From Skermanella rosea (GTDB lineage Bacteria; Pseudomonadota; Alphaproteobacteria; Azospirillales; Azospirillaceae), in NCBI RefSeq assembly GCF_016806835.2, contig NZ_CP086111.1, forward strand, positions 2,863,001-2,927,000: 64,000 nucleotides of DNA. Direction: 5' to 3'. Below are positions 1,076 to 23,688 of this stretch, in pieces. Position 1 is the first letter of the stretch, and each line of letters begins with the position of its first letter. Both the position numbers and the translations under genes were made by a program. The notes below the pieces were generated by a model. That model worked only from the letters and a program-made list of their open reading frames with translations. It was not told the origin of the DNA and searched no databases.

Positions 1076-1089
1076 TGGCGGATAGGGTG
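1076..1089. repeat. Candidate attachment site, copy of the tRNA-Ser 3' end
   Basis: The 14 bases TGGCGGATAGGGTG are identical to 23675-23688, which are the CCA end, discriminator and acceptor strand of tRNA-Ser. They lie 182 bases upstream of a tyrosine integrase. A tRNA 3'-end repeat next to an integrase is the usual signature of an att site. Identity stops abruptly after base 1089. The site was identified by reading; excision was not shown. Confidence 0.8.
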
Positions 1090-1271
1090 TCCGCCTAACT
1101 GCTGTTCCTCGCTGTCCGTAAACGTCTCAAAAACCCTATCTATCTCAACCCGCTGACGCCGGAATGTCTCACCTTGTTCGCCAATAACCCCTGCAATCCG
1201 CCATACTTGGATGGTACAAAGGATGGGACAAGGTTCCGAACATGTTCCAGAGATGACAGGGCGAAGCAAGT

Positions 1272-2540
1272 ATGGCACGTACGATGGGGCGGCTGACGGC
1301 GATGGCGGTGACGCGGGCGACGAAGCCGGGCATGTATGCTGATGGCGGGGGATTGTACCTCCGGGTCGGGCCGAACGGCGCGAAGTCATGGGTGTTCCGC
1401 TTCCGGGTTGACGGCAAGCGCCGCGACATGGGGCTCGGGCCGCTTCATGCCGTTACCCTGGCCATCGCGCGCGAAAAGGCCACTGCCTGCCGAACTGAAC
1501 GGTTCGACGGGCGCGACCCACTGGAAAGCCGTCAAGCCAGCAGGCTGGCCGAGAAGCTGGCTGCTTCAAAGGCCATGACCTTCCGGCAATGTGCCGCCGG
1601 CTACATCGATGCCCATCGATCGGGATGGAAGAACGAGAAGCATGCCGCCCAATGGGGCTCGACCCTGGAGGCTTATGCTTATCCGATCTTCGGCGACCTG
1701 CCGGTTCAGGCGGTTGATACCGCGCTGGTGATGAAGGCGCTGGAGCCGATCTGGAGGACGAAGACCGAGACTGCAAGCCGGCTACGTGGCCGTGTAGAGG
1801 CGGTGCTGGACTGGGCGACCGCGCGGGAGTTCCGGCGGGGTGACAATCCAGCTCGATGGCGCGGCCACCTGGATCACCTCCTCCCCTTGCGTGCCAAGGT
1901 CCAGAAGGTCCAGCACCATCCGGCGCTGCCCTATACCGAGATCGGCGCCTTCATGACGTCTCTGCGGTCCCAGCAGGGCCATGCGGCGCGGGCGCTGGAG
2001 TTCCTGATCCTGACGGCCGGCAGGACCGGCGAGGTGATCGGCGCGCGGTGGAGCGAGATCGATCTGATGGAGGGCGTATGGATCGTTCCGGCAAGTCGGA
2101 TGAAGGCCGGCAGGGAACACCGCGTTCCGCTCTCGGCGCCCGCGATCAAGCTGATCCGGGAACAACAGGCGGCAGCGGAGCTGGTCGAGGGGCGACTGGA
2201 TGGGTTCGTGTTCCCCGGCGGGCGTCCCGGCAAGGGGCTGTCGAACATGGCTCTCCTGAAGCTGCTGGGGCGCATGAAGCGGGATGACCTGACCGCCCAT
2301 GGTTTCCGCTCGACGTTCCGGGATTGGGCGGCCGAGCAGACGCATTTCCCACGGGACGTCGCGGAAATGGCCCTGGCGCATACCGTTTCGGACAAGGTAG
2401 AGGCCGCATACCGGCGGGGTGACCTGTTCGGTAAGCGGCGAAAGCTGATGGAAGCATGGGCGACGTATTGCGGAACCATGCCGGCGATGAAGGGCGAAGT
2501 CGTTTCACTGAACCAGGGTCGAAATGGAACAAGATCATGA
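1272..2540 (+). CDS. Tyrosine-type site-specific integrase, P4 family
   Basis: A 422-residue protein with an N-terminal DUF4102-like DNA-binding domain (GGGLYLRVGPNGAKSWVFRF near residues 25-44), a core-binding domain, and a C-terminal catalytic domain. The catalytic set is visible: Arg251 in TAGRTGEV, His343 and Arg346 in HGFRSTFRDWA, His370 in ALAHTVSDKVEAAY, and Tyr380 as nucleophile. Length is normal for the family, so it looks active. It lies 182 bases inside the left att copy and reads into the island, so in the circular form it would sit beside attP. The expected role is integration into, and excision from, tRNA-Ser. Confidence 0.93.
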   Translation: MARTMGRLTAMAVTRATKPGMYADGGGLYLRVGPNGAKSWVFRFRVDGKRRDMGLGPLHAVTLAIAREKATACRTERFDGRDPLESRQASRLAEKLAASKAMTFRQCAAGYIDAHRSGWKNEKHAAQWGSTLEAYAYPIFGDLPVQAVDTALVMKALEPIWRTKTETASRLRGRVEAVLDWATAREFRRGDNPARWRGHLDHLLPLRAKVQKVQHHPALPYTEIGAFMTSLRSQQGHAARALEFLILTAGRTGEVIGARWSEIDLMEGVWIVPASRMKAGREHRVPLSAPAIKLIREQQAAAELVEGRLDGFVFPGGRPGKGLSNMALLKLLGRMKRDDLTAHGFRSTFRDWAAEQTHFPRDVAEMALAHTVSDKVEAAYRRGDLFGKRRKLMEAWATYCGTMPAMKGEVVSLNQGRNGTRS

Positions 2541-2807
2541 ATGCGTTACCCACCTGTCGCCCCCTCGGGAGGGTCTGCGCGTTGGCCTTCGGAGGAACCA
2601 TACCCCCTGCCGCCGAACCTGGCCGATCTGGCGGCCGACCCCGGCGAACTATGGCCCGACGATATCGTTCCCGAAGGTGAAGGGGAGGTCCCGCTGTTCG
2701 ACGCGTGGCTCCAGGCAGCGGATGTCCGGCCGAACTGGTCGAAGCACTCGCCCCGGCCAGATCACCCGCCACACCGATCGGCCTGTACGAGGCGGATGAT
2801 GGCATGA
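2541..2807 (+). CDS. Small hypothetical protein directly after the integrase
   Basis: An 88-residue frame whose ATG abuts the integrase stop codon. The middle is acidic and proline-rich (DPGELWPDDIVPEGEGEV, then PLFDAWLQAAD), which is more protein-like than the overlapping frame starting at 2524. No family is recognised. The basic C-terminal end may be fortuitous. Abutting the integrase suggests translational coupling, but a spurious frame cannot be excluded. Confidence 0.35.
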   Translation: MRYPPVAPSGGSARWPSEEPYPLPPNLADLAADPGELWPDDIVPEGEGEVPLFDAWLQAADVRPNWSKHSPRPDHPPHRSACTRRMMA

Positions 2808-2855
2808 CGGCAGGAGGGTGCCTTTCCTGATCGATGGGACGGGATGGGGGCAGAT

Positions 2856-2876
2856 GGTAGGTACCCGGTACCTGCC
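2856..2876. promoter_or_regulatory. Near-perfect palindrome
   Basis: GGTAGGTACC and GGTACCTGCC are inverted copies around a central C, with one mismatch. It lies in the 216-base gap between the small post-integrase frame and a small membrane protein gene. It could be an operator or a regulator-binding site for the element; no function is shown. Confidence 0.35.
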
Positions 2877-3023
2877 ACATCGCGATCATGGGTCCCATCT
2901 TCGCCATCTAAGGACCTGATTGAGCTGGCATCGGTCTACCCTAAGCGATTACGCAGCCATTCTCGGCTCACCCTATGGCACCCTGATAGGATGGCTATTG
3001 AACCAATGAAGGAGTGATAACCT

Positions 3024-3155
3024 GTGATCGAACTGACGGTCATTATCATCCTGTCAAACCTCGTTATTGTAGCGACTTTGATTTATCAAGGCTACAACGG
3101 CCCTGCCGCGTTGCTGGGCTTGACGGTGGGGCTGCTGGCATTGTCGCTGCTGTAA
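3024..3155 (+). CDS. Small two-helix membrane protein (43 aa)
   Basis: The frame starts with GTG at 3024, nine bases after a good ribosome-binding site (AAGGAG, 3009-3014), and ends with TAA at 3153-3155. The product is almost entirely hydrophobic: one helix near residues 3-19 (LTVIIILSNLVIVATLIY), a short polar turn (QGYNG), then a second helix rich in Leu and Gly. No family is recognised. Such proteins can be holin-like, toxins or subunits of small membrane complexes; the sequence does not decide which. The strong SD supports translation. Confidence 0.5.
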   Translation: MIELTVIIILSNLVIVATLIYQGYNGPAALLGLTVGLLALSLL

Positions 3156-3438
3156 AGCGCCGACCGCCTCAAAGCTTTCGATAGCAAGCAAAAAACGCGA
3201 GCATGATCAGGGCACCGGCGAGGTGACCGAGTGATGGCCTCAGCGGCAGAAGCCGCGCGCTTAGAGTCGAGGGACACTGATTTTCGGGCCGCCCCGAGGC
3301 TTTCTTGGCGGCCTCCAGCAGACTGCGTGCCGGTATCCAGCGGATCGGGACCAATGTGGAACCATACACATCTGACTTGCGAGAAACAGGTGGGCAGAGG
3401 GAACGATATAGCCGAAGTGTTTGAGATTAGGCTCATGT
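3156..3438. other. Intergenic region, no supported gene
   Basis: There is a short frame at 3231-3548 on the plus strand, but it overlaps the end of the AT-rich gene on the other strand and looks like a shadow. Base composition falls from GC-rich to AT-rich across this stretch, marking the edge of the low-GC segment. Confidence 0.4.
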
Positions 3439-4077
3439 TTATGACACACCAAATACAAAAAACTTCAAACGGTCCGGAAATAGGTGCATGTAGTCATATA
3501 GAGCATAATATAATGCAGTCAACAACAACGTGCCAACAACACTGGTAAACGCAGCCCGAGCTCCAACTCCAATTATCCCATAGAATCTAGATGTTGGTTT
3601 TGCTCTATGCACTGCAACATCTATAATATGCAGTAAAATTTTTCTTCTTTCATAACCAAGCTTTTTTTGTTCATCAGTTAAGAACATCAATTCGCGAAGA
3701 GAGGAGCCAATGACCCAAGCAAAATAGAACAATGATCCATACGTCGAGACTATCAAAGAGCTGAATTTTACATATTCCCTAGGTTCTTCCGTAAAATTAG
3801 TAAGTCCTCCATATCCTAATGAAATAATTACACCCATATATATAGCCCTGAAAATAATCAGAAGTACGTTATTTCTTTCCCATGCTAATCCAAGCCAGAC
3901 CCCACAAGATATAAAACATACAGATGTTAATGAAACAGCTAAACCCAAGCTGAGCGAGCCCATATCATATTGTCTGGCTAATATTATCGCAACTAAGCTT
4001 GGTATCATTACTGTTTCTTCATGAGGCGGCCCATATTTTTTTAGAAAATTTATGAAATTTCTCAGTTTTTGCACCAT
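3439..4077 (-). CDS. AT-rich multi-pass membrane protein of unknown function
   Basis: A 212-residue protein with about five hydrophobic segments: near residues 24-35, 43-64, 70-90, 108-125, and a C-terminal one around 172-195 (ALYYALYDYMHLF). A cytosolic loop between the last two contains TDEQKKLGYERRKILLH. A GGAGG ribosome-binding site lies just upstream of the ATG on the minus strand. The gene is conspicuously AT-rich, unlike everything else in the window, and many codons end in A or T, so it was probably acquired from a low-GC donor. No family is recognised and no catalytic motif is visible. Confidence 0.7.
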   Translation of the reverse strand: MVQKLRNFINFLKKYGPPHEETVMIPSLVAIILARQYDMGSLSLGLAVSLTSVCFISCGVWLGLAWERNNVLLIIFRAIYMGVIISLGYGGLTNFTEEPREYVKFSSLIVSTYGSLFYFAWVIGSSLRELMFLTDEQKKLGYERRKILLHIIDVAVHRAKPTSRFYGIIGVGARAAFTSVVGTLLLTALYYALYDYMHLFPDRLKFFVFGVS

Positions 4078-4540
4078 AAACCTCCAGCAAGTTACATTCT
4101 GGATACTGGTTTTTATTTCCTCTTTTTATCAAGTGTCTCAAAAGAATATAAGCAGATACGTATAGGTTAATACTGAAGTTTCTCATTTTATTGCATCAAG
4201 CAGTTATTGCCACCAGGACTGCCGCGACTGCCCTAGCTCGGGCAGCGCTCTCTCTGGTTCCGCTTCCAAATAACCTCTGTTGACGTGCAACGCGGCACGC
4301 CGATCGATCAGCTCCCTGATCTAGTCGAACATGGTCGTGACGTCGCCCGCCATGCATACCTGATCGGCTTTGGCATGATCGATCTCGGTGTGCCTCTGAG
4401 ACGCAACACGCGCGACATTCCACTCCTCGATGGTCACGCTTGATCGGCATTGCCCCGGCCCGCGAAGGCCATCACCAAGCGGGCCAGTTTCGATGACACA
4501 ATATCTATCGTGGGAGCGCCAGGTAAGCCCCTGACCTATG

Positions 4541-4638
4541 CCGATCTCCGGGTCGCAGAAGTGGGTATAGAAATTAAGGTCCTTCTCCACACTCAGCCGT
4601 CAGAACGCCTATAGCGGCCTTCTAGCGGCCCGCATGAC
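4541..4638 (-). repeat. Degenerate duplicated segment, copy A
   Basis: Alignable with 4946-5045 at roughly 70 percent identity by eye, strongest over the last 35 bases (AGCGGCCTTCTAGCGGCCCG against AGCGGCCTTCCAGCGGCCCG, then CATGAC). Read on the minus strand it covers the start of a short coding remnant containing NFYTHFCDPEIGIGQGLTW. The matching remnant in copy B reads AYTHLHGLEIGERTIA, so the two are diverged paralogous fragments. Confidence 0.5.
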
Positions 4639-4639
4639 A

Positions 4640-4885
4640 TCGATCAGCTTCCAGTTGCTGCCGTCTCCATATCCATCCTCGCTCGGCGTTCGCGCACCGC
4701 GGCCTCGTCCGCGGCCCGGGCCACGCGGCCGGCTGACAATTCCCAGGCGAATGCCGCGTCGAGCAGGCGTGCCATTTCCGGCTCGGTCTCGCGCCAGACC
4801 CGGCAAGCTGTCGGTGTCCATTGACCAGGATTGCGGCCCACCTTGCTTGCTGATCCGCAGCCAGCAGGCCGGGGAAGTCACTCAT
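4640..4885 (-). pseudogene. Short frameshifted gene remnant (MSDFPGLL...)
   Basis: Starts MSDFPGLLAADQQARWAAIL with an ATGA overlap to an upstream remnant ending in WERVEHE. After about 28 residues the protein-like reading moves to another frame (VWRETEPEMARLLDAAFAWE, then LSAGRVARAADEAAVRERRA) and stops near 4644. The intact ancestor would have been about 80-90 residues, mostly helical and charged. No family is recognised. The shift could also be a sequencing error. Confidence 0.4.
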
Positions 4886-4945
4886 CTATGCTCTACCCTT
4901 TCCCAGATCCGGCCCAACACCCGCAAGCAAGCGATTGTCCGCTCC

Positions 4946-5045
4946 CCGATTTCCAGGCCGTGGAGGTGGGTGTAGGCATCGGTGCCACCTTCCCCTAGTC
5001 GGACGGTCAGAAGGCATCCAGCGGCCTTCCAGCGGCCCGCATGAC
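4946..5045 (-). repeat. Degenerate duplicated segment, copy B
   Basis: Partner of 4541-4638. The shared minus-strand peptide is AYTHLHGLEIGERTIA in this copy. Alignment needs a gap of two bases and is lost on both sides. Confidence 0.5.
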
Positions 5046-5600
5046 GCCCGATCGGCCCAGACGTGCCCCGCCTTCGACGTCACGGGTCCCATCCAGCCGC
5101 CCAAATGTCCCCTTTCGGCTCCTAGGTCAAGGCGTCCCCCCTTCAACCGGCGCCATCTTCAGATCGCGCAGCCCCAACTCCAACGCCTTCTCGTAGGCAT
5201 CCTGGTCTTCCCCGGCTCAAGTCATCGATGTCGTGGTTATCCCGCAACCTGCCGGGGTCTATAGGTCGATCGTCTCTATCATGGTGTCGTCGAGCGGGAT
5301 CGGGAACAGGACCAGCTGCTTGCGGGTCCGCTCCGTCGCCGCTTCCCTCTACGGCATCACGTCTGGGGTAGTGGCGCAATGGCCAGGCATGTCGGCTAGG
5401 AGGAGGTAGGTGCCGGCCATCCCATCATCGAGGCGGCGGGTCCCATCTTACCCGCCAATCACCATCCCCGTCATCGACGTCCAAACTTCCCGGACCACTC
5501 CCTACAGAGCCATCCTGGTAGGTCCTGGTATGTTTCCGAAGCCTTCCATCCGGGGAGATGACGGGCTAAATGGCGGGTTCCTCAAACCCGGAGACCGGAC

Positions 5601-6332
5601 ATGCCTGCCGATGATGAAAACAATGCCGGCTCCTCTATCCAAGTCGACGAAACCGGCTGGCGTCGAGCACTTCAGCAAACCGACTCTCGGCGCCTTCCGC
5701 CGGAAGAGCTTCGGCGGTACGAGTCCGAGGCCAAGGTCATCCGCGCCCGTACAGACGAACTAGATGAGGGGGATGATGAGAACCTAGCTGACCGCGCCGC
5801 CATTCTGGAGGCATGCGCAACCCGTTACTACCTGCACCGGACCGAAACAATGTCGCCGAAGGGGGCGGATAGCCGCGCCGAAGCCATTCGGATAATGGAA
5901 GAAGCCAAAGTTTTTCTCGAAGCTGTGGATCATATGAGCGACATCACCTTAGATCGCCTGGATGAGCTGGGCGGGGAGGTTGGTGCATCCTATCGAGCGG
6001 TCATCAGGACGCTGGACGCGGCCAAGCAGCTCATCGGTCCTGCCCCGGCCGGGAGGCCATCTCATAAACACTTGGATAAATTCGTCGCGAAGCTCGCCAA
6101 GACCATTTACGTCCTCTACGACATCGAACTCAGGGTCTACTTCACTGATGCCGGACATCCCATTCCGGCTGTTTCAGAATTTCTGTGGAAGCTGGTCAAG
6201 CACTTCGATCCGGGGGTGGACGAGGGAAGCCTGCGTACTGCCATGAGGCGAACCAAAAAGAAGTGTAATGCCATGAGGCGGGCCAGAGAGAAGTTCGAAG
6301 CGGCTCGTCGACTGACAGAAAACCCCTCTTGA
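5601..6332 (+). CDS. Hypothetical helical protein of the island
   Basis: A 243-residue, charged, soluble and largely helical protein. It contains segments such as LPPEELRRYESEAKVIRART (residues 31-50) and LDRLDELGGEVGASYRAVIR in the middle, with a strongly basic C-terminus (AMRRTKKKCNAMRRAREKFE). No signal peptide or membrane helix is seen. The frame is clean, has normal GC for the genome, and lies upstream of the replication module in the same direction. No family is recognised. The basic end could bind nucleic acid, but that is only an inference. Confidence 0.65.
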   Translation: MPADDENNAGSSIQVDETGWRRALQQTDSRRLPPEELRRYESEAKVIRARTDELDEGDDENLADRAAILEACATRYYLHRTETMSPKGADSRAEAIRIMEEAKVFLEAVDHMSDITLDRLDELGGEVGASYRAVIRTLDAAKQLIGPAPAGRPSHKHLDKFVAKLAKTIYVLYDIELRVYFTDAGHPIPAVSEFLWKLVKHFDPGVDEGSLRTAMRRTKKKCNAMRRAREKFEAARRLTENPS

Positions 6333-6423
6333 AGTATTAGGATTTCTGTCAGCGACAGATGGCGAGATCATGAGCAACATGGTGTAAATGATTGTCCATC
6401 GAGGTTCTCGATGGAGTCACATC

Positions 6424-6837
6424 ATGAAGAATACTTCCTGCGCTTCGACTGTCCCGGAACAGGACATAACATTCGCCAATCAGCCCTGGAGGCGTGCGTT
6501 TTACTCGATCGAACAGATCAAGACACTCACCTCCATCTCCCGCACCACGATCTACCGTGAAGCCCAGGCCGGTCGCCTGAAGTTATCGAAGCTCGCTGGC
6601 CGGACCGGTGCCATGGACGAGGACTTCATGGCCTGGCTCTCACTGGGCGAGGAGATCAAGCGGACGCTGTCCGGCGCCATCGAGTCCCCCAGTCGCGGGC
6701 GCGCTTCCCCTCGCCCTCGGAGACCTGACGGACGCCATCCGACATCCCCACCACGGCGAGGTTCGCCGGCTGGCGAGGTCAGTGCCGCACGTATTCAGCA
6801 ACCACCCCTCTGCCTTTCGCCCGGGGTAAAGGCATGA
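6424..6837 (+). CDS. AlpA/MerR-like helix-turn-helix protein (putative excisionase or regulator)
   Basis: Residues 25-65 form an excisionase-type winged HTH: FYSIEQIKTLTSISRTTIYR followed by EAQAGRLKLSKLAGR and an acidic anchor MDEDFMAWL. This layout is that of AlpA-like proteins, which in P4-type elements control integrase or excision. The C-terminal third is Arg/Pro-rich and probably disordered. ATG 6424 is preferred to 6388 because the HTH then starts near the N-terminus. The stop overlaps the next ATG (ATGA), which ties the gene to the replication operon. Confidence 0.7.
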   Translation: MKNTSCASTVPEQDITFANQPWRRAFYSIEQIKTLTSISRTTIYREAQAGRLKLSKLAGRTGAMDEDFMAWLSLGEEIKRTLSGAIESPSRGRASPRPRRPDGRHPTSPPRRGSPAGEVSAARIQQPPLCLSPGVKA

Positions 6838-7358
6838 CCGGCGCTGGGTATGTCAGGACCGACCAGATCAAGGAAGCGGTCGTCGGCCATGAACTCGACG
6901 TGCTGAACGCCATCGGCATCGGCTGGCACGGCGGTCGCGGTCACATCGACTGCCCCTATCTCGATCATGGCGGCAAGGATGACTGGCGCTGGGATACCGG
7001 CAAGGCGCGCGCCTTCTGCACCTGCATCGGCCAACGACCCGATGAGGGCGGATCGCACAGCATCTTCGACGTCGTGCTGGTCCGCGAAGGCGTCGATTTC
7101 GAGGCAGCCAAGATCCGTTTTGCCGAGATCATCGGCCGCGCCCACCTGATCGAGGAAGGCGGTAGCGGTCCGCGCGGTCAGATGCAGGATGCCGTATGTC
7201 TGCTGTCGGCGCCGGTGGAGGACCGGGACGACACGTTGCCGCTAAAGTATCTCGCCGCGCTGCCGCTCGGGATTGATCCAGCAGCGGCGCCGACTCCCCG
7301 CATGTGCGCCGTGGGAAGCAAGGGCGTCGCGGGGTCGAACGAAGGCGTCGAGGCATGA
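6834..7358 (+). CDS. Zinc-ribbon primase-type protein (CHC2-like zinc-binding domain)
   Basis: A 174-residue protein with a zinc-finger pattern of the primase N-terminal type: HIDCPYLDHGG, a Trp-rich strand DDWRWD, then AFCTCIG. This gives Cys-x2-Tyr-x2-His followed by Cys-x-Cys about 20 residues later, as in toprim/primase zinc-binding domains that read single-stranded templates. The rest (SIFDVVLVREGVDFEAAKIR) matches helices that follow such fingers. There is no catalytic primase domain here; that lies two genes downstream. The gene overlaps both neighbours by ATGA, so the four genes form one coupled operon. Confidence 0.7.
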   Translation: MTGAGYVRTDQIKEAVVGHELDVLNAIGIGWHGGRGHIDCPYLDHGGKDDWRWDTGKARAFCTCIGQRPDEGGSHSIFDVVLVREGVDFEAAKIRFAEIIGRAHLIEEGGSGPRGQMQDAVCLLSAPVEDRDDTLPLKYLAALPLGIDPAAAPTPRMCAVGSKGVAGSNEGVEA

Positions 7359-10041: not shown

Positions 10042-10043
10042 GG

Positions 10044-10268
10044 CTGTGCAGCTATGCAGGTCTATGCAGACGGGTGCCTGCATAGGCTGCAAAGCTGCAA
10101 ACATGCGGGTTTCAGAGGTCGATGGCATTCTATGCAAAACACAACCTGCATAGGTCATTTTCTCAGGGCGAAAAAGTCAACGAAATCAACCGTATGCAGC
10201 TATGCAGCCTATGCACCCCCTACGGGGGGAACCTCCCTCTGCATAGCGGCGGGGGTTCGCCCGCATAG
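10044..10268. repeat. Iteron-like cluster of CTATGCAG octamers, candidate replication origin
   Basis: At least eleven copies of CTATGCAG or near matches occur in 225 bases, in both orientations. Direct: 10044 (one mismatch), 10052, 10062, 10130 (one mismatch), 10192 (one mismatch), 10200, 10209 (one mismatch). Inverted: 10078, 10146, 10239, 10261 (one mismatch). Several neighbours are 8-10 bases apart, about one helical turn. An A-rich patch (10171-10190) lies inside. Placement directly after the primase-helicase stop codon fits a theta-type origin bound by an initiator, but a repressor-binding array is possible. No gene lies here. Confidence 0.65.
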
Positions 10269-10997: not shown

Positions 10998-11016
10998 TCG
11001 GCGCAATTCCACTGGA

Positions 11017-13357: not shown

Positions 13358-13368
13358 GGCCGACCCGT

Positions 13369-14936: not shown

Positions 14937-16162
14937 GCGGCGGCTCCGCCGTCCCGAACCAGGCCGGCGGCCCAAGCTGCGAGCGCGTCCAGCCCCTCGG
15001 CCGGGTCGGCCGGCAGCGCGCCGGGGTCGACCATGGAGGCGAAGCGCCGCAACTCGCGCCGGCCGTACATCCGGTCGAAACCCGCCAGATGCTCGCCGAA
15101 CCCGCGGAAGGCGTTCGCCCGCAGATCGCCCCGCGTCGGCACCGGGCGTAGGAAGGCATTGGCGAGGCTGCGCGGCTGACGGGCTCCAGCCTCGATCATC
15201 ATCAGTTCGGCATAGCCATAGGGAGCCGTCGAGCCGAGCTTGGCCCCCGGGGAGACACTGGCGATCAAGTGGACAAGATGCTCGACCACGCGGGACGCGA
15301 GATCTCGGTCGGCATCGCGCCAGCCGCGCGCGTCGCAGCCTTCCAGGTTGGATACCAGCAACGGCACATCCACGACGACATAAACGTAGAATAGTCCGCT
15401 GGTCAGTTCGCTGGTCGCGATCAGGCCGGATCCCATTTCGCCGGCGCTCTGGCGCAGGTCGTCCACGGCGGTGAAATAGTCGGGCTCCGCCTCCTCCCCG
15501 TGGACGGTGAAGGCGTGGGCGACATGGACCGCGGCATCTCCGCGCGCCAGATAGTCGGAGGTGACCATCCTGCCGAACAGCGCGCCGTCGAGCCCCGACG
15601 CCTTCGACAATGCCTCCAGGTTGGCCCGGTTGTCCTTGATATAGGTCTCGGCCGCCTTGGTGGCGTCTTTCACCGCGGCTGAGTCGCGGGCGAGATCGCG
15701 CGCGGCATTCTTGATGAACTCGATTTCCGGCCGACCGAGCACGATTACCTGGTTCGTATCCAGCCGCTCCAGCGGGTCGGAAGCGCTGTCCTCGCCCTGT
15801 TTCCCCTTTTTCTGGGAGCGCTCCTTCTCCGCCTTGGCGCTCTCGCCCAGCAGCTTGGCCTGGAGCGCCGCGACGACAGTGACTACCAGGTCGACCGGCA
15901 ACCCCTCGGCGACCAGCGGCTCGGCGATTTCCTTCCGGAAGGTAATGCGCGATCGCACCGCCAGCGGGACACCGAGCTGGTCGAACGACCATTCATCGAC
16001 CGCGCGGCGCCAATGGCGCTTTAGGCATTGAGACGACACGCGGGTGCGCTCGGCTCCGCCGAAGGGCAGGCGCTTGGCCCGGCCCACGTCGTCGCGGTTC
16101 AGCAGCGCCGCCGCATAGGGTGTCAGCGCATGGATCTGAAGGAAGCGCGGTTCAACGCTCAT
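14933..16162 (-). CDS. cas7e: Cascade backbone subunit Cas7e (CasC/Cse4)
   Basis: A 409-residue protein. It opens with the family pattern RFLQIHALTPYAAALLNRDD and GRAKRLPFGGAERTRVSSQC LKR (broken here for length), with an internal GLDGALFGRMVTSDYLARGD segment and VAHAFTVHGEEAEPDYFTAV. Six copies normally form the helical crRNA-binding backbone of Cascade. It is slightly longer than E. coli CasC (363), partly through a Lys/Glu-rich insertion around residues 108-125 (KAEKERSQKKGKQGEDSASD). It overlaps cse2 by 11 bases. Confidence 0.95.
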   Translation of the reverse strand: MSVEPRFLQIHALTPYAAALLNRDDVGRAKRLPFGGAERTRVSSQCLKRHWRRAVDEWSFDQLGVPLAVRSRITFRKEIAEPLVAEGLPVDLVVTVVAALQAKLLGESAKAEKERSQKKGKQGEDSASDPLERLDTNQVIVLGRPEIEFIKNAARDLARDSAAVKDATKAAETYIKDNRANLEALSKASGLDGALFGRMVTSDYLARGDAAVHVAHAFTVHGEEAEPDYFTAVDDLRQSAGEMGSGLIATSELTSGLFYVYVVVDVPLLVSNLEGCDARGWRDADRDLASRVVEHLVHLIASVSPGAKLGSTAPYGYAELMMIEAGARQPRSLANAFLRPVPTRGDLRANAFRGFGEHLAGFDRMYGRRELRRFASMVDPGALPADPAEGLDALAAWAAGLVRDGGAAA

Positions 16163-16766
16163 TATCGTTTTCCTTCGCGGTTCTGGTCAGTTCGCGGAAG
16201 TACCGTCGGGCGATGTGATGGGCGGCATCGTCTGGATCGAGCCGTTCGGGAAATCGCGCTCCGGATCGGGCCAGGACGAACCGGCCGAATTCCAGCCAAT
16301 CGATCGCCCGCCCCTTGTTACGGAACCACAGGCAGACAGTCCGCACCTCCGCCGCCAGCGTGTCGCCTTCGGCGCGCAGCAGGCGGACAAACCGGGGTTC
16401 GGCATAACCGGTGGCGGCCAGCACGGCGCCGGGAGCCGCGCCCCTGGCGTGGGCTCCCGGCGCCATCGTCGCCATGCCGGCGACCACGGTGGCCCACGCC
16501 TTTTCCTGCACCGCGTTCCCTATCCAATCCTCTCCGATGCGGGGCAGCGCGAGATGCCAGAAGGCGGGCGGCAACACGCCGGCTTCCGGCTGTATGCGCC
16601 GCAACTCCGCCACGGCCCCGCTGCCGATGCCCATCGGATCGCCCGGATTATCGAAAGCATGGGCCAGTTTGAGCAGCGATTTCGCGGGTTCGGGCAGCGG
16701 CTTTGCCAGCTCCTTCGCGGCCCCGGCTGTGCTACCGGGGACGGTCTCTGGGGCGGTCTCCGTCAT
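16152..16766 (-). CDS. cse2: Cascade small subunit Cse2 (CasB, Cas11e)
   Basis: A 204-residue helical, basic protein. Recognisable parts are GIGSGAVAELRRIQPEAG near residue 45, LVRLLRAEGD-like RFVRLLRAEGDTLAAEVR, and FGRFVLARSGARFPERLDPD near the C-terminus. Two copies line the belly of Cascade and stabilise the target strand and R-loop. The N-terminal 20 residues are Thr/Ala/Pro-rich and probably disordered. It overlaps cse1 by 4 bases and cas7e by 11, so all Cascade genes are translationally coupled. Confidence 0.92.
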   Translation of the reverse strand: MTETAPETVPGSTAGAAKELAKPLPEPAKSLLKLAHAFDNPGDPMGIGSGAVAELRRIQPEAGVLPPAFWHLALPRIGEDWIGNAVQEKAWATVVAGMATMAPGAHARGAAPGAVLAATGYAEPRFVRLLRAEGDTLAAEVRTVCLWFRNKGRAIDWLEFGRFVLARSGARFPERLDPDDAAHHIARRYFRELTRTAKENDNER

Positions 16767-18310
16767 GCTACCTCCTCGGGTCTGTCATTCGACTGGCTCA
16801 GCAGGGCAAGCCGTTTGGACAGGATGCGGGTGAAGGTGAGTTCAGCGAGGGCGTGCGCCCTCTCGCGCCGCTGCGAGGGCGGTGTCAGGCGGATCGACCA
16901 GTCTTCGAAAACGTCGATGGCGGCGGCATACAATTCCCGCTGCCATGTGACCCGCGCCGGGTCGTCGCCGCCGGTCTCCACGATCGCCCAGAGATGCTTG
17001 AAGAAGAAATCGTCGATACGCCGGTCCAGTACCTCGCCGGCCTCTCCCACCCGCTTGTCCTTGAAGTCGAGCCTGTCGCCCTCCGGTCCACCCTGGACGA
17101 GAGACAGCAAGGCGACCCTCAGCGCCTTCTTGGCGCCGTCCCGGCAATCCTCGATCATGGTCTTCGCGATGGCATGTACTGCAAGGCGGTCCTCACGGCG
17201 GAACAGACGCCGCCGGGCTGCCCGGGTTAGCGGAAGCCAGCGTTCATACAAGCCGTCGGTTGTCCCTTGTCCGCGCACCAGCACGGACAGGTGCAGCAGC
17301 ATCCGGCCAGGCGGATCGTCCGGCAGATCGCTTAAGGCGGGGGACGGATCAATCTCCGGAGAAGTCAGGATGTCCGCGACCAGTTCGTACCGAAACCCTC
17401 CCGGCCCGACGGTCAAGGCGGCTGCCTCCTTTTTCCGGACCGGCGTCCACAGGTCGCCGACGACGCCTTTCAGGTCCTTGGCGGCGACCCTTGCTGCCTC
17501 CGTTGGCTTGCCCCAGGCCACCACCCCGCCGGCATCGTCGCGGGTCAGACGAACCCTGCGGCAGATTTCGATGAACAGCGGATCCAGATCGTCGAACGAC
17601 AGGCTTTCTGCGCCGTCCCAATCCCGTGTCCACAGCAGGGCCAGACCGTTTTCCGAACGGAACCGCAACGGGAGTGCGAGCTGGTCATTACGCGTAGCTG
17701 CGGCGAGCTGCAAACCCCTCCGGAACCGTTCTCCCCAATCCGCGGACGGAACCAGATCGACCAGGACGCGGCTGGCGAACCCGCCGTTCATCCGGGCAAC
17801 GCCGTAGTTGCCCCGGCCGAGGAAGCCCTGCTGCGTCTGCAAGGTGATCAGGGCATAGACCCAATGGTGGAGATTAGCCGCACCCAGTCGGAATGCCTTG
17901 ACGTCGTGGTTCTTGGCGGTGATCAGCACGTCGATGCCGTCGGGCGTGTCGGCAATCCTGTTGAAGCCCTTCAGGCTGCCTTCCTTGATCGGCGGTTGGA
18001 AAAATGCCGGCTGGCGGAAATCCTCGACCACGAGGCACCAACCCGGTTCTGGAGCCAGGGCCAGCAACAGGTCGCGCCACACGGCCTCGTCTCCAGGAGG
18101 TGTGTCGAGGCCGCCGCGGTTAAGCGCTATCGCGCCGAGCTGGACCAAGAACTGATACCAAGCCTGCCGCTGATGCGGCGCGAGGCCGGGAAATGCGGTG
18201 ACCGTGCCCGAAGAAAGGTGGGCCAGGACTTGGGGCAAGGATGCCGACGAGCAGGTGGTATCGTCCCTCTCGATCGGGAGCATCGGGTCCGTAACGAGGC
18301 AATCGGCCAT
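16763..18310 (-). CDS. cse1: Cascade large subunit Cse1 (Cas8e, CasA)
   Basis: About 515 residues. The start MADCLVTDPMLPIERDD matches the family opening. Later parts include AFFQPPIKEGSLKGFN, the L1-type loop region GFLGRGNYGVARMNGGFASR, and a C-terminal four-helix region. Cse1 recognises the PAM and recruits Cas3. I chose ATG 18310; an in-frame GTG at 18319 would add three residues. It is the first gene of the Cascade-adaptation operon. Upstream it is separated from cas3 by a gap containing a terminator, so it needs its own promoter. Confidence 0.93.
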   Translation of the reverse strand: MADCLVTDPMLPIERDDTTCSSASLPQVLAHLSSGTVTAFPGLAPHQRQAWYQFLVQLGAIALNRGGLDTPPGDEAVWRDLLLALAPEPGWCLVVEDFRQPAFFQPPIKEGSLKGFNRIADTPDGIDVLITAKNHDVKAFRLGAANLHHWVYALITLQTQQGFLGRGNYGVARMNGGFASRVLVDLVPSADWGERFRRGLQLAAATRNDQLALPLRFRSENGLALLWTRDWDGAESLSFDDLDPLFIEICRRVRLTRDDAGGVVAWGKPTEAARVAAKDLKGVVGDLWTPVRKKEAAALTVGPGGFRYELVADILTSPEIDPSPALSDLPDDPPGRMLLHLSVLVRGQGTTDGLYERWLPLTRAARRRLFRREDRLAVHAIAKTMIEDCRDGAKKALRVALLSLVQGGPEGDRLDFKDKRVGEAGEVLDRRIDDFFFKHLWAIVETGGDDPARVTWQRELYAAAIDVFEDWSIRLTPPSQRRERAHALAELTFTRILSKRLALLSQSNDRPEEVA

Positions 18311-18319
18311 AGACAGCAC

Positions 18320-18651: not shown

Positions 18652-21309
18652 TTAAGTTGCTTTGAGCCCGAAGCGATCATAGCCAAGCGACTTGCCGCCG
18701 AAATTGAACAGCAGCGATCCAGCCTCGACTTGAACGTTTTCGGGGGCGGCCTCCGCCGGAGAATGCGGCACCAGCCATCCAGGAATGCGGATGCGAGTCA
18801 CTTCCTGTCCGAACGGCCCTTCGACTCCGTTCCGGAAGATCGCCATGCGGTCGTTGAGTCCGAGACGGGTGCTGATCGCGCCATCCAGCCCTTCGGGCAA
18901 AGGTTCCAAGGGCTTGCTCCATTTGATCTCCGCCGTATTCGCCGCCATCCCGTGCGCGATGGCCTTGCCTATGACGGTCCTGGCATGCCCTGTCCAGAAA
19001 CCGCCCAGCGACTCGGCAAGGGCCGTAAGCGCCTCGGGATGAGTTGCCGCTTCGACAAGCAATCGGTTCTCCCGCGGCAGATCCAAACCGCGCCGTGCCT
19101 CCAGCTCGCGGCGGGTCGCCGCCAACCCCAGCAGATTGGGATAGGTTCGTCCGAAGCCGAGGAGCCGCGGGATTACGCTGCCATCAGAACGCAGCAGCGA
19201 CGACAGGGCGTCGATCGTGGGTGCAAGCACCACGAGCCGCGCCGTCTCGAACCCGGTGGGGCGTGGTCGTTTGTGGCGGTGCAGCCGCCCGACCCTTTGC
19301 AGCAGGACATCGGCCGGGCACAGGTCTGTCACGAGCAGGTCCGCGTCGATGTCCAGGCTCTGTTCGGCCGTCTGGGTCGTGACCGCGATGCAGGGAGCAT
19401 TTGCCGTCTTCCCGAACGCCTGTTCCAGCGCATCGTCGAGGAGGCGGCGATCCTCGGCGGCGAACCGCGCATGATGCGGACAGGACCGCCCGGCGATGCC
19501 GAACAGCAGACCGGAGCTGGAGGGGCTGGCCAGCATCTCGACCTTCTGCTGAAGCTCCATGGCGCGGCGGACCGTGTTGACGATCACGAGCACCCGGGCG
19601 CCTCGTTCCCCGGCCTCGACCGCAAGCCGAGCCACGGCGTCGAGATCTTCCGGGTCACCGACCAGTTCGATCGCTACCGGCTTCGGCGGAGGAGCGTCGC
19701 CTATAGCCGGCTCGACCGGATCTCTCGTGCCCGACGTTACTGCGGGGAAAGGCATGTCCGCGACGACTTCCAGTGCGGGCGGCCTGTCGGTGCGGCCAGT
19801 CAGGCGGTGGCGGGCGGCGGAACCAAGTGTCGCGGACATCAGCAGGGCATGACCGCCGGCGGCGCGATGCTGGTCGAGCACGTGCCGCAAGAGTTCCTCC
19901 ATGTACGGGTCACTTGCATGCACCTCGTCCACCACCAAGAGATGACGCAACATGGCGGCGGAACGCAATTGCGCATGCCGTACCATCAACCCGCCCATCA
20001 AGAGCTGATCGACGGTCCCGACCATGACGGCTCCCGCCAGGAACCGCTTCGGCTGCTCCACCGCCCAGCCCCGGTCCCGAAACTTGTCGCCGTCGTTATC
20101 GGGCCAATGCACGCCGTAGTCGGGCAGCGGCTCGCCATCCTGGTCGTCGACCCGGAGATAGCCTGGAACTGCCAGCCCGACGGGCGGGCAGCCGTCTCCT
20201 AACAGACGGCGTAGGTCATCGCGTATGCGACGATGGATCTGAACTGCCGATGCTCTTGTCGGCAAGGCGAAGTAAAGTCCGTCGACGCAGTCGGCGCGCA
20301 GCAGGTTCAGGAAATGGATCAACGCCGCCTCGGTCTTGCCGGATCCAGTCTCGGCCTCGACGACCAGCAGGCTGCCGGACCCGGGTTCCGGTGCCGTACG
20401 GGCGAGCAAATCGGCCTGGAGCGGGCGAGGCCGGCGGCCAGGCTCCGGGAAGAGCGCTGCGAAATCCCAGTATAGGCTCCGGGCGGCGTCGCGTGTACGT
20501 TCCGGGTCGAGCCATCGGTCGATAAGGACACGCCGCGCCGCGGCACGGGCGAAGACCATCCGGTCCGCCGATGCGGAGGGCGCCTCCGGATCGCCGGGAA
20601 ACGGAAACCTGCCGGAGTCTGACCCTAGCCAATCGGCCAGCATGACCAGCCCGGCGAAGGCATGCAGAAAGCGCGGAGAGGTCGGCACCTGCCCGACGTC
20701 GGGCGCGAAAGCGTCTGGAAACCAGCGGCGCAGGGCCGCGGTCAGCTCGCCGACGGCGGAAAGTGGATCGTATACGGGGGTGGCTTCCCAAAGTGCCGGC
20801 TCGACCACGATGGATTTCGGCAGCGAGCCGTGATGGGCGAACAAAGCCGTCATGAGGTCCGCCAGCCCTTCACCGGCGACCTTTTCTTCGCACCAGCTGG
20901 CAAGGTTTTCCACATCAAGCATACTGTACAATATTTTTTTTAACCTCATTGCTGTGTCAAAAGATCCACCGCCCTCATCCCCCAGTAGTATGGCCATCGC
21001 CGGACCGACATGGCCCGCCCTTCGCACGGATTGCCGTTCATTTCGGTCGAGCGCTTTGTTCTGGAACCCATGATTGGCCTTGCCGAAATCGTGCAGCGCC
21101 GCCAGTGCCGCAAGACGCGCGCGCTGGCCGGCCGAAAGCTCTTGCCTGCCCGCCAACCGCGCCAGCCGGAGATTGACGGTCGGCAAGCCGAGCAAAGCTT
21201 CCATCATGGCGGCGACGTCGGCGCTATGATCGGTCAACGAGAGATACGACGCAATCACCCCATCCTCGTTCTGCCGCAACTTCGCCCAGGGACGTGGGAT
21301 GGGAAACAT
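18652..21309 (-). CDS. cas3: CRISPR-associated nuclease-helicase Cas3
   Basis: An 885-residue protein. The N-terminal HD nuclease shows SLTDHSADVAAMM (His28) and ALHDFGKANHGFQNK (His73-Asp74). A DExH helicase follows: Walker A AETGSGKTEAAL near residue 325, LLVVDEVHASDPYMEELLRH near 462, and motif VI region LQRVGRLHRHKRPRP. Cascade recruits Cas3 to degrade the target strand. Everything needed for activity seems present. It is divergent from array 2, with a shared 116-base region between them, and has its own terminator. Confidence 0.96.
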   Translation of the reverse strand: MFPIPRPWAKLRQNEDGVIASYLSLTDHSADVAAMMEALLGLPTVNLRLARLAGRQELSAGQRARLAALAALHDFGKANHGFQNKALDRNERQSVRRAGHVGPAMAILLGDEGGGSFDTAMRLKKILYSMLDVENLASWCEEKVAGEGLADLMTALFAHHGSLPKSIVVEPALWEATPVYDPLSAVGELTAALRRWFPDAFAPDVGQVPTSPRFLHAFAGLVMLADWLGSDSGRFPFPGDPEAPSASADRMVFARAAARRVLIDRWLDPERTRDAARSLYWDFAALFPEPGRRPRPLQADLLARTAPEPGSGSLLVVEAETGSGKTEAALIHFLNLLRADCVDGLYFALPTRASAVQIHRRIRDDLRRLLGDGCPPVGLAVPGYLRVDDQDGEPLPDYGVHWPDNDGDKFRDRGWAVEQPKRFLAGAVMVGTVDQLLMGGLMVRHAQLRSAAMLRHLLVVDEVHASDPYMEELLRHVLDQHRAAGGHALLMSATLGSAARHRLTGRTDRPPALEVVADMPFPAVTSGTRDPVEPAIGDAPPPKPVAIELVGDPEDLDAVARLAVEAGERGARVLVIVNTVRRAMELQQKVEMLASPSSSGLLFGIAGRSCPHHARFAAEDRRLLDDALEQAFGKTANAPCIAVTTQTAEQSLDIDADLLVTDLCPADVLLQRVGRLHRHKRPRPTGFETARLVVLAPTIDALSSLLRSDGSVIPRLLGFGRTYPNLLGLAATRRELEARRGLDLPRENRLLVEAATHPEALTALAESLGGFWTGHARTVIGKAIAHGMAANTAEIKWSKPLEPLPEGLDGAISTRLGLNDRMAIFRNGVEGPFGQEVTRIRIPGWLVPHSPAEAAPENVQVEAGSLLFNFGGKSLGYDRFGLKAT

Positions 21310-21425: not shown

Positions 21426-22916
21426 GGCTCCCCCGCGCCTGCGGGGATAGACCTTCAGAACGGCGGCTGGTGCTGTGCGGCGATAGGGCTCCCCCGCGCC
21501 TGCGGGGATAGACCCGTGTACGACGACGTGACCCGGCACGGCGTCAAGGCTCCCCCGCGCCTGCGGGGATAGACCCCCGACAAGTTCGTGACCGAGTACG
21601 TCCGCGGCGGCTCCCCCGCGCCTGCGGGGATAGACCCCCGCCCGGTTCATTAAGTAGTCACAACGAGGAGGCTCCCCCGCGCCTGCGGGGATAGACCTCT
21701 GGTAGGGGTCCGCAATAAGCGCGCCGGTATGGCTCCCCCGCGCCTGCGGGGATAGACCTCAGTCACCCGAAATCGTGACTGCACAGCCGGCGGCTCCCCC
21801 GCGCCTGCGGGGATAGACCCGTTATAGGTGCCGGTCGGGTTGTCCTGCGTCCGGCTCCCCCGCGCCTGCGGGGATAGACCCCCGTTCGCCTGCCTGTCGC
21901 CCGTGCTGATGCCGGCTCCCCCGCGCCTGCGGGGATAGACCCCGGACGTACCAGATCGGCGCCAACACAATGGGGGCTCCCCCGCGCCTGCGGGGATAGA
22001 CCTCTTCGTGCCGTCCACGGCCGGCCGCATCCTGCGGCTCCCCCGCGCCTGCGGGGATAGACCCTCCGGGGCATCAGTAAGCCTCATGACATGAAAGGCT
22101 CCCCCGCGCCTGCGGGGATAGACCCTGGACGTCTACTAGGCGCATTATTGCGCTTTAGGCTCCCCCGCGCCTGCGGGGATAGACCCTTTATCGCGATCTG
22201 CTTGCTCATCCGGTTGAGGGCTCCCCCGCGCCTGCGGGGATAGACCCTCTATCTATGGACGGAAGGCGGCTACGACGGCGGCTCCCCCGCGCCTGCGGGG
22301 ATAGACCCTTTCCGCTTATCCGCCTCAAATCAGCGGCCGGGGCTCCCCCGCGCCTGCGGGGATAGACCCCCCAGCCCGGTCGGGTCCTGGAAGTCCTCAC
22401 CGGCTCCCCCGCGCCTGCGGGGATAGACCCCAGGACCGCTCGTTCGCGACGCAGACGCAGAAGGCTCCCCCGCGCCTGCGGGGATAGACCCCGATCGGCC
22501 ACCACCGTGAAATCGGACGTGGGGGCTCCCCCGCGCCTGCGTGGATAGACCTCCGCCATGATGACCAACACCGTCTCGATCCACGGCTCCCCCGCGCCTG
22601 CGGGGATAGACCCGTCCGGTACAAGGCGACGGAGCGGTACAGCTTGGCTCCCCCGCGCCTGCGGGGATAGACCCAGGTCCGCGCCGAGTTCGGGCAAGGC
22701 GGTATCGGCCCCCCCGCGCCTGCGGGGATAGACCCGCCCACCTGCGGGACGTCAAGACCAAGGCCATGGCTTCCCCGTGCCTGCGGGGATAGACCCCAGG
22801 CTGGCCCGATCACCGAGGCGAACATCCTGGCTCCCCCGTGCATGCGGGGATAGATCCGAGACGAACAAGGGCACTCCGGATCACGCGCTGCTTCCCCGCC
22901 TGCGCGGGGATGGACC
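21426..22916 (+). CRISPR. Type I-E CRISPR array 2: 25 repeats, 24 spacers
   Basis: Twenty-four repeats start every 61 bases from 21426 to 22829, and a degenerate twenty-fifth starts at 22889. Each repeat begins GGCTCCCCCGCG and ends GGGGATAGACC; the stem is CCCCGC/GCGGGG with loop GCCT. The leader is at the left, and decay is at the right: a substitution at 22524, then changes at 22707, 22768, 22829 and 22889. The repeats at 22768 and 22829 carry CCCCGT, as in array 1. Spacers are 32-33 bases and look unrelated by eye. Confidence 0.97.
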
Positions 22917-22998
22917 TGGAGAGAAAGGTCTCCAGCTCCTCCGGGGTGACTAGCAGCGGCTTGACCAGCTTCTTCGCGACGGGAGCGAGGGGTGGGCA

Positions 22999-23181
22999 TC
23001 ACAGCATCTTGACCAGGGCGGCGGTCAAGGCGGGCTGACCAAGCAGGATTGGGAGCACCCACTTCAGGAGATCGGCCTTCGTTTCCGACAGGTCGGCTTT
23101 GGTCGCTAGGGGCTGTATGTCGGTCTTCGTGACCAGCTTTTCGCCATTCATCGCTTCGGATACCGCGGCTGTGACGGTCAT
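22999..23181 (-). CDS. Small hypothetical protein with C-terminal hydrophobic helix
   Basis: About 60 residues starting at an ATG that overlaps the upstream stop (ATGA). A polar N-terminal part (TKTDIQPLATKADLSETKAD) ends in a hydrophobic tail LLKWVLPILLGQPALTAALV. The repeated TKxDL/ATKADL pattern is typical of short coiled-coil membrane proteins (DUF1640-like). After its stop the same frame continues protein-like (APVAKKLVKPLLVTPEELE) into the degenerate last CRISPR repeat, so the gene may once have been longer. Confidence 0.5.
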   Translation of the reverse strand: MTVTAAVSEAMNGEKLVTKTDIQPLATKADLSETKADLLKWVLPILLGQPALTAALVKML

Positions 23182-23462
23182 GGCAGGTACCTGGTCAGCA
23201 GGTTGACCACGGCAACAACCAGTCCACTGATTACACCGACGATGGTCGAAGCGATGATGACCGGGTCGAGACGACGATCGCGGTCCAGCTTCTGCAAATC
23301 GGCAATCAGCTTGCGCTGTTCGGCGCGGCACTTGTCACTCTCCTCGATTAACCTGCGCGTCTCGGCGCGGTACTTGTCGGTTTCCTCCATCTGGCGACGG
23401 AGACGGGAAAGCTGCTCGGTGACGTCGAGATCGGCGAAGCTGTCAGATCTGGTCATGGTCAT
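23178..23462 (-). CDS. Coiled-coil protein with C-terminal membrane helix
   Basis: About 94 residues. A long charged coiled coil (LRRQMEETDKYRAETRRLIE, then ESDKCRAEQRKLIADLQKLD) contains a repeat of the form E-(E/S)-(T/S)-D-K-(Y/C)-R-A-E. It is followed by a single hydrophobic helix, IIASTIVGVISGLVVAVVNL. It overlaps the next small gene, so the two form a pair at the right end of the island. The architecture is that of small tail-anchored proteins; no function is known to me. The start is taken at MTMTRSDS; longer starts are less likely. Confidence 0.6.
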   Translation of the reverse strand: MTMTRSDSFADLDVTEQLSRLRRQMEETDKYRAETRRLIEESDKCRAEQRKLIADLQKLDRDRRLDPVIIASTIVGVISGLVVAVVNLLTRYLP

Positions 23463-23674
23463 GCTCCAGGGGCAAGAAACCCCCGCGCTGGAGTGTACCA
23501 GCAACCGGGAGAGAGGTTAATCAGGTGATTGGCCTGTCACTCCGGCGAGAAGATCAGCATGACGAAATCCGCATCTGACGCTTCCCTCGCCCATGCGCGG
23601 ATGGATCAGTGGATGGTACAATCCAGACCTGGACCAGAAAAACGCTGATAGTTCAATAGATTAGATCGTGAGAA

Positions 23675-23688
23675 TGGCGGATAGGGTG
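23675..23688. repeat. Right attachment site within tRNA-Ser
   Basis: The 3'-terminal 14 bases of the tRNA gene, including CCA, are identical to 1076-1089. This is the likely crossover core region of the element's integrase. Confidence 0.8.

Follow-up and report, generated by a model that had tools for sequence, protein, structure and literature searches.

A putative integrative element at tRNA-Ser(GCT) of Skermanella rosea with a type I-E CRISPR-Cas system and a predicted replication module

Background

In Vibrio cholerae, the 17-kb genomic island GI-24 carries a type I-E system of clustered regularly interspaced short palindromic repeats (CRISPR) and CRISPR-associated (Cas) proteins, and its excision was shown by attP PCR (PMC6360697), so CRISPR-Cas on an excisable island is already known. 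Here we describe a 64,000-nt stretch (the window; positions 2863001-2927000 of the 6,098,631-bp contig C1) of the 7,759,404-bp, seven-contig genome of Skermanella rosea. Within it, a 22.6-kb interval ending at the 3' end of tRNA-Ser(GCT) is very likely a site-specific integrative element carrying a type I-E system and a replication (rep) module, whose mobility is deduced from its parts. Like the S. rosea element, GI-24 has a complete I-E system and an integrase between attachment (att) sites and is absent from related strains (PMC6360697). GI-24 has another host and lies between VC0289 and VC0290, and the word "replication" is absent from the main text of its report (PMC6360697), whereas the S. 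rosea element sits at tRNA-Ser, holds a rep gene with iterons and appears to have exchanged this block between species.

The terms phage-inducible chromosomal island (PICI) and capsid-forming PICI (cfPICI) are used in their customary sense. The S. rosea element resembles capsid-forming PICIs and P4-like satellites in its site-specific integrase, candidate small helix-turn-helix (HTH) protein, presumed primase-helicase-type rep gene with iterons and room for defence cargo. It differs in that no packaging or capsid gene was found among the open reading frames (ORFs) searched, in its cargo of a 9-kb cas operon with arrays, and in its 22.6 kb against the ~12 kb given for the small P4 capsid (PMC9122126). 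CRISPR-Cas is also carried as cargo, with possible conflict between mobile genetic elements (MGEs), by integrative and conjugative or mobilizable elements (ICEs, IMEs) and plasmids (PMC9841420, PMC9071438). One of these reports describes a bias of CRISPR-Cas towards MGEs above 100 kb (PMC9841420), whereas the S. rosea element measures 22.6 kb and has no relaxase in the ORFs searched. In Alphaproteobacteria, I-E systems lie outside the chromosome on the conjugative plasmid p5 of Azospirillum argentinense and on a RepABC plasmid of Pontibrevibacter, neither of them tRNA-integrated; the latter, a 34-kb circle, was considered as an excised element and rejected as a RepABC plasmid. Among the matches listed in a search of open-licence full text, outside which subscription papers fall, no title or abstract start concerned this element or a CRISPR-Cas phage satellite.

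Results and discussion

Anatomy and boundaries of the element

A 14-bp core, TGGCGGATAGGGTG, occurs exactly at both ends of the interval as a direct repeat and equals the final 14 nt, CCA included, of tRNA-Ser(GCT) (Table 1). Chance recurrence of any one 14-mer on either strand of 22.6 kb has, by an arithmetic estimate, a probability of ~2e-4. Between the two copies, the order is the integrase, a gene-poor stretch of 55% GC, a 243-amino-acid (aa) protein (p243), the HTH protein, a zinc-finger protein, an AAA_25 helicase, iterons, a DUF5681-like protein, array 1, cas2-cas1-cas6-cas5-cas7-cse2-cse1-cas3, array 2 and a 108-aa protein. An integrase and att direct repeats equal to a tRNA 3' end, as in tRNA-integrated genomic islands, are thus both present. 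A preliminary description had reported the repeat, the integrase inside its left copy, an HTH regulator, a separate zinc finger, a primase-helicase, an iteron-like cluster, complete cas genes and two arrays. All of these were recovered, the primase-helicase as an AAA_25 helicase and the HTH and zinc finger with weak profile matches, and the anatomy of an integrative element with its own replication module and a whole I-E system is supported.

The sequence of the element end beside the left att copy, TCCGCC[C/T]AACTG, recurs in Skermanella aerolata and, before another core, at a second copy of the element at tRNA-Ser(GGA) of S. rosea. Because of this recurrence, the left att copy is assigned to the CRISPR element; the concern that it might come from a different element was thereby addressed. 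At the second copy, the sequence next to this element end is CTCCCTCCGCCA, with which tRNA-Ser(GGA) terminates, and in the window it is the core of tRNA-Ser(GCT); the element boundary is thereby placed at the tRNA 3' end. An IS66 transposase-like ORF (window 71-871) lies just outside the left att copy.

Table 1. Coordinates of the features discussed (window positions, unless a contig, locus or length is given)
Feature	Position or size	Strand	Remarks
tRNA-distal att copy	1076..1089	+	repeat of tRNA 3' end; element end on its right side
Tyrosine integrase, 422 aa	1272..2540	+	reads inward from distal att; Pfam Phage_integrase, Phage_int_M, Arm-DNA-bind_3 above cut-off
55% GC stretch	2541..5600		few recognisable genes; two 40-bp repeats at 4599 and 5006
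p243, 243-aa chassis protein	5601..6332	+	function unassigned; 53% aa ortholog in S. aerolata element
Small HTH protein	6388..6837	+	candidate excisionase/regulator; HTH_17 E 0.006, below Pfam cut-off; phrog_66 excisionase/regulator E 7e-5
Zinc-finger protein	6834..7358	+	first 165 aa 74% identical to N-terminus of S. aerolata 975-aa Toprim-DUF927 replication protein
AAA_25 (RepA-type) helicase, 773 aa	7720..10041	+	presumed primase/helicase initiator; Pfam AAA_25 1e-33
Iteron cluster	10052..10246		putative origin; eight CTATGCA in 195 bp, both orientations, six = CTATGCAG
DUF5681-like protein	10629..10997	+	27.0 bits, just under 27.5 cut-off; phrog_15261; S. aerolata homologue
CRISPR array 1	11018..12143	-	18 spacers between 19 repeats; degenerate repeat at 11018, opposite end facing cas2
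cas2e	12208..12501	-	TIGR01873
cas1e	12473..13357	-	TIGR03638; mostly deleted in S. aerolata
cas6e	13369..14157	-	TIGR01907
cas5e	14154..14936	-	TIGR01868
cas7e	14933..16162	-	TIGR01869
cse2	16152..16766	-	TIGR02548
cse1 (cas8e)	16763..18319	-	TIGR02547
cas3, HD nuclease-helicase	18652..21309	-	TIGR01587, TIGR01596; PADLOC Cas3e 1.7e-154
CRISPR array 2	21426..22916	+	25 repeats, 24 spacers; degenerate trailer end towards tRNA
108-aa protein	23178..23504	-	function unassigned; phrog_6330 4e-5; Pfam matches sub-threshold only
tRNA-proximal att copy	23675..23688	+	= tRNA-Ser 3' end
tRNA-Ser(GCT)	23675..23764	-	integration target
Second S. rosea element	G000:C1 about 5231552-5238800		tRNA-Ser(GGA); array, integrase, ISL3 transposase, without cas
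G018 element	10.5 kb		capsid, DUF927
G011 element	L178:533-16575, 16 kb		OLD-like AAA_15 nuclease, DUF927; nine GGGGTTAC iterons 3' of DUF927 gene
G031 element	L142:10335-19754; 14.9 kb		TerL, TerS, HNH, capsid-protease, primase; at tRNA-Ser(GGA)
L269, IMG/VR piece			integrase, capsid, protease, portal, HNH, TerS, TerL, tRNA-Ser

CRISPR-Cas system and accessory genes

All eight I-E cas genes were found with I-E repeats and in the canonical order (cas3, cse1 (cas8e), cse2, cas7, cas5, cas6, cas1 and cas2), as quoted in one report (PMC6360697). Each gene exceeds the cut-off of at least one NCBIfam model; Cas3 does so for the helicase and HD domain models, not for full-length PRK09694. The two arrays hold 42 spacers (18 + 24). 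With the array at tRNA-Ser(GGA), three arrays were found in the genome, equal to the three tabulated for S. rosea M1 (PMC11767975). For another member of the genus, S. cutis TT6, that source lists five CRISPR arrays (PMC11767975).

Among the accessory genes, p243 matched no family at E 0.01 (Pfam) or 0.001 (PHROG and PADLOC), and a 212-aa ORF in an AT-richer patch (3439-4077, minus strand) had no Pfam, PHROG or PADLOC match. No relaxase, as ICEs and IMEs would have, was detected in the nine non-cas ORFs with Pfam and PHROG (oriT was not looked for). The same nine ORFs, searched with Pfam and PHROG and eight of them also with PADLOC, contained no packaging or capsid gene, the small ORFs 4634-4975 and 10209-10628 lying outside the search. 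Transfer would therefore need a helper (phage or conjugative element) or transformation.

Replication module and its exchange

The zinc-finger protein, which matches Zn_Ribbon_Prim weakly (E 0.51), precedes the 773-aa helicase, the helicase part of which matches a PHROG polymerase/primase family at 1.9e-35. Matches to this helicase occur in 14 of 82 genomes of the family Azospirillaceae and, beyond its own gene, are partial only (22-34% identity). It has no counterpart in S. aerolata. Relatives of the helicase locus were sought in genome contigs and those of the 975-aa S. aerolata rep protein in viral contigs, with none found in either.

Directly 3' of the helicase gene, clustered short repeats lie beside the presumed initiator gene, as in iteron-bearing replicons. 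None of 300 first-order simulations of the 599-bp stretch contained as many as six copies of the main motif. Over the full window there are 10 occurrences of CTATGCA where 2.9 are expected, and 1 of 100 shuffles gave as many as 10; two control stretches of the window had no iteron cluster. The 40-bp repeats at 4599 and 5006 were also considered as iterons and set aside in favour of the CTATGCA cluster next to the rep gene, which has the stronger support.

In S. aerolata, the zinc-finger domain forms the N-terminus of the 975-aa Toprim-DUF927 protein, whereas in the window it is a separate gene followed by an unrelated AAA_25 helicase. Iterons lie directly 3' of the rep gene in four of five elements tested, and the motif differs with each rep gene: CTATGCAG (six copies) in the window, GTGTCCAA (12) in S. 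aerolata, GGGGTTAC (nine) and AAGTGCGC (four) in the elements of two further family genomes, G011 and G018. In none of these cases did any of 300 first-order simulations reach the count. Between the two CRISPR elements, rep gene and iterons differ together, as one block, from which we infer that the rep protein and the iterons are an initiator and its predicted origin and that the two were swapped together. S. aerolata has a further copy of its Toprim-DUF927 rep gene (90% aa) at a contig end (G001:C26:1-7465), which probably belongs to a sister element.

Divergence and selection between S. rosea and S. aerolata

Within the genus, cse1 was found in two of five genomes, those of S. rosea and S. 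aerolata. Blocks of alignment between the S. aerolata island and the window extend from 5505 as far as the tRNA, which is the same in both species; the cas genes of the island are 87-89% identical at the nucleotide level and its integrase 86% at the aa level. A relative with cas genes at this place and neither integrase nor att repeat would have spoken against the element; S. aerolata has cas genes, integrase and att, given an inferred contig join.

Synonymous (dS) and relative nonsynonymous (dN/dS) divergence between the two species were calculated by NG86. For cas6, cas5, cas7, cse2, cse1 and cas3, dS was 0.32-0.50 and dN/dS 0.06-0.27, compared with dS of 0.43, 0.47 and 0.64 for the chromosomal genes gatB, gatA and metC, indicating that the cas genes are about as divergent as these three and constrained. 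Higher dS values were obtained for p243 (1.26) and the HTH gene (1.30), values above 1 being near saturation, as well as for the DUF5681 gene (0.89) and the integrase (0.76); the zinc finger gave 0.47. Thus p243 and the HTH gene clearly, and the DUF5681 gene and the integrase less so, appear to come from more divergent sources. The integrase is under purifying selection (dN/dS 0.11), and its frame is open in the window.

A 784-bp deletion in S. aerolata (window 12409-13192) takes most of cas1 and the start of cas2, while the six interference genes are open. Beside the deletion, the S. aerolata cas1-cas2 region contains an insert of ~1.2 kb flanked by ~104-nt inverted repeats (79%). No spacer is common to the arrays of S. 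rosea and S. aerolata, nor to these and the tRNA-Ser(GGA) copy, suggesting that the arrays turned over after the species split.

Second copy in S. rosea

The integrase of the tRNA-Ser(GGA) copy (5237320-5238585) is 95% identical in aa sequence to that of the window and ends 11 residues sooner; between it and the array there is a gene for an ISL3 transposase. This array has 14 repeats and 13 spacers, one spacer occurring three times in a row. Over the 40 kb searched there, the window matches only at the integrase end and the arrays, and the genome contains one cse1 and one cas7e. The tRNA-Ser(GGA) copy reads as a relict of a CRISPR-bearing sister element. A transposase-like ORF was noticed by eye just outside its distal att copy.

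A domesticated island, immobile and vertically inherited since the ancestor of S. rosea and S. aerolata and lost in Skermanella mucosa and others, would agree with the cas dS within the range of the three chromosomal genes, the purifying selection on cas, the use of the same tRNA in both species and the state of the second copy, with its ISL3 transposase, shortened integrase and lack of cas genes. We regard such an island as possible, if somewhat doubtful: the window integrase is open and constrained, the rep-iteron block seems to have been exchanged, and the tRNA-Ser(GGA) copy represents an insertion at a second site.

Tandem arrangement and the unoccupied site in S. mucosa

A genome search for the att core that tolerated one mismatch returned three copies along this locus, at 2821527, 2864075 (the left copy of the window) and 2886674 (the tRNA), and three further scattered one-mismatch sites. 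The copy at 2821527 is exact, lies 42.5 kb left of the window copy and is absent from the preliminary description. Beside it is a gene for a 652-aa DUF6538 protein that weakly matches a PHROG integrase family (E 5e-12). Twenty ORFs at or near the outer two att copies were examined, and those between the two copies include Cytochrom_D1, VWA, MFS_1, CbiX and siroheme-decarboxylase-like matches, the first three of which we take to be NirS, NorD and NarK; the 42.5-kb stretch between 2821527 and 2864075 is read as a denitrification island. The third att copy and the second integrase-like gene indicate a tandem of two elements at this tRNA, of which the CRISPR element is the tRNA-proximal one.

With this third att copy, its DUF6538 gene and the denitrification genes in between, the mobile unit could instead be the whole 65-kb tandem from the outermost att to the tRNA, moving CRISPR and denitrification genes together. 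This is quite improbable, as the CRISPR element stands by itself in S. aerolata: the sequence outside its att there matched neither the denitrification island of S. rosea nor the end of that island in BLAST, and one block just outside the att resembles the S. mucosa tRNA flank (15/16 nt by eye; not reported by BLAST at 1e-3).

In S. mucosa, the chromosome that lies left of the S. rosea tandem (88% over 2,173 bp) is 88 nt from the tRNA. The comparison with relatives lacking the island, as proposed in the preliminary description, thus shows an unoccupied tRNA-Ser site, with the break placed within a kilobase. Skermanella pratensis and a further genome, G004, showed neither cse1 nor a detectable common flank.

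Relatives in Azospirillaceae

Integrase relatives (E <= 1e-60) were found in 21 of the 82 family genomes and cas7e (E <= 1e-20) in 15. Four genomes have both: S. rosea, S. aerolata, G031, where cas lies outside the att-bounded element, and G042, where it is on another contig. A separate I-E locus in G031 is ~19 kb from its satellite-like element. Among the best 80 of 392 cas7e loci from GTDB genomes, spanning at most 10 kb on each side and many on short contigs, only that of S. aerolata has chassis genes (tblastn, 1e-6) or a tRNA-Ser.

That the CRISPR locus is merely chromosomal and lies by chance between unrelated att copies would agree with the 13 other cas7e-positive family genomes: none of the eight loci inspected has cas inside such an element, and the remaining five genomes have no integrase match at 1e-60. 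The association of integrase, array and tRNA-Ser recurs three times (window, S. aerolata and tRNA-Ser(GGA) copy), and we disfavour such a coincidence as very improbable.

Related tRNA-Ser elements, in G018, G011 and G031, have an integrase of 47-50% aa identity at the tRNA-distal end and a repeated tRNA end of 14-16 nt; in other integrase relatives, the integrase lies at the tRNA-proximal side. G031 and L269 resemble satellites of the capsid-forming kind. In the integrase tree, the Skermanella sequences group in a separate clade (99/99), deeper forks being weak.

These relatives bear on whether the element is a phage satellite proper, packaged by a helper phage and using CRISPR against competing phages. 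Related integrases (46-50% aa) occur with tRNA-Ser and at the tRNA-distal end in the capsid- or terminase-bearing G031, G018 and L269, the S. aerolata rep protein is of Toprim-DUF927 type, G011 and G018 encode DUF927 proteins, and iterons follow the rep gene. None of the nine non-cas ORFs searched is a packaging gene, the tree does not settle the place of the Skermanella clade relative to satellite integrases, and the ORFs searched in G011, an element of the same kind, include one for an OLD-like nuclease and none for a capsid. P2-like phages and P4-like satellites are described by Rousset et al. as lacking large systems such as CRISPR-Cas (PMC9122126). We consider a satellite proper unlikely. 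The label "satellite-like" in the preliminary description holds for the related integrases and DUF927 rep genes of some capsid- or terminase-bearing tRNA-Ser elements; as no packaging gene was found here, the element is not assigned as a satellite, and the link is a lead only.

Spacer targets

The matching of the 42 spacers to databases, suggested earlier, covered phages, plasmids and the own genus and yielded no above-chance match acceptable as a protospacer; use of the spacers against rivals thus remains a hypothesis. Against phages, array 2 had 8 matching records (E 5), none accepted, and array 1 had 62 (E 1-4), none accepted among 60 of the 62 rows. Fifty of these 60 rows are one 34-nt match to head genes of Escherichia-phage type that runs past the spacer into the repeat. 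Against plasmids, no protospacer was accepted in any row of the 40 records matching array 1, nor, for the 114 records matching array 2, among the best 60 rows and 60 at even steps, which leave out one second 99% record and part of the lower half. Most of the long plasmid matches fall where no genes are annotated, which is expected of arrays, and two records opened carry I-E cas genes. The short ones are at chance level, including 22-nt exact matches at E 4-5 (two Methylocella records and one Tardibacter), a glycolipid-binding-domain gene (E 0.03), an MFS gene (E 0.09) and trbE of Enterobacter/Klebsiella plasmids (E 5).

Within the five genomes of the genus, spacers matched sequence besides the arrays at E 0.005-0.1; only the best matches were inspected, and none was accepted. 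The best one (25/27 nt; 26/33 over array-2 spacer 2) falls within an ORF of the S. rosea chromosome that looks like a topoisomerase gene by eye, and another, of 27 nt, straddles spacer and repeat. Comparison of the 94 spacers of five arrays with 274 sequences returned one match of 22-31 nt, that of array-2 spacer 2, and shuffled spacers returned 0. Five of the 42 spacers, written as degenerate coding patterns (frame by eye), had 0 matches each in IMG/VR.

Proposed cycle and its support

In the cycle we propose, a circle would arise by recombination between the two att copies, carried out by the integrase with the small HTH protein as its probable excisionase. The RepA-type helicase/primase would copy this circle from the iterons 3' of its gene, and re-integration would restore the tRNA. 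CRISPR-Cas would be stably kept cargo that cuts invading DNA and protects host and element. Replication and regulatory modules would be exchanged with related elements, and transfer would occur via a helper phage, a conjugative element or transformation.

Several points weigh against an integrative element of this kind. Excision and transfer, which we deduce from the parts, have not been observed. The Pfam match of the HTH protein is below cut-off, the primase fold of the helicase N-terminus was not confirmed (predicted structure, mean pLDDT 37), and the fifth element tested, G031, had no iterons in the stretch searched. In S. aerolata, the integrase and left att copy are at the end of contig C212 and the cas genes on C211, so the join of the two is itself an assumption. 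The homology of S. rosea to S. mucosa stops 845 nt outside (left of) the outermost att rather than at it. Finally, the cas divergence resembles chromosomal divergence; recent movement of the whole element is thus not supported, and long residence fits equally.

Conclusions

The papers cited here describe mobile CRISPR-Cas from plasmids, ICEs and genomic islands. In Skermanella, a small integrative element would combine an exchanged rep-iteron module with an I-E system under purifying selection. Stages of loss may be seen in the second S. rosea copy, which retains an array only, and in S. aerolata, which has interference genes without adaptation. Whether mobile CRISPR serves the host or the element thereby becomes testable in one type strain. 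Tentatively, and with considerable doubt, we suggest that a satellite-derived tRNA-Ser lineage in Azospirillaceae swapped packaging cargo for adaptive immunity, with CRISPR-Cas constant and the initiator-iteron origin exchangeable. If true, the element would change its replicon compatibility while keeping its immune apparatus.

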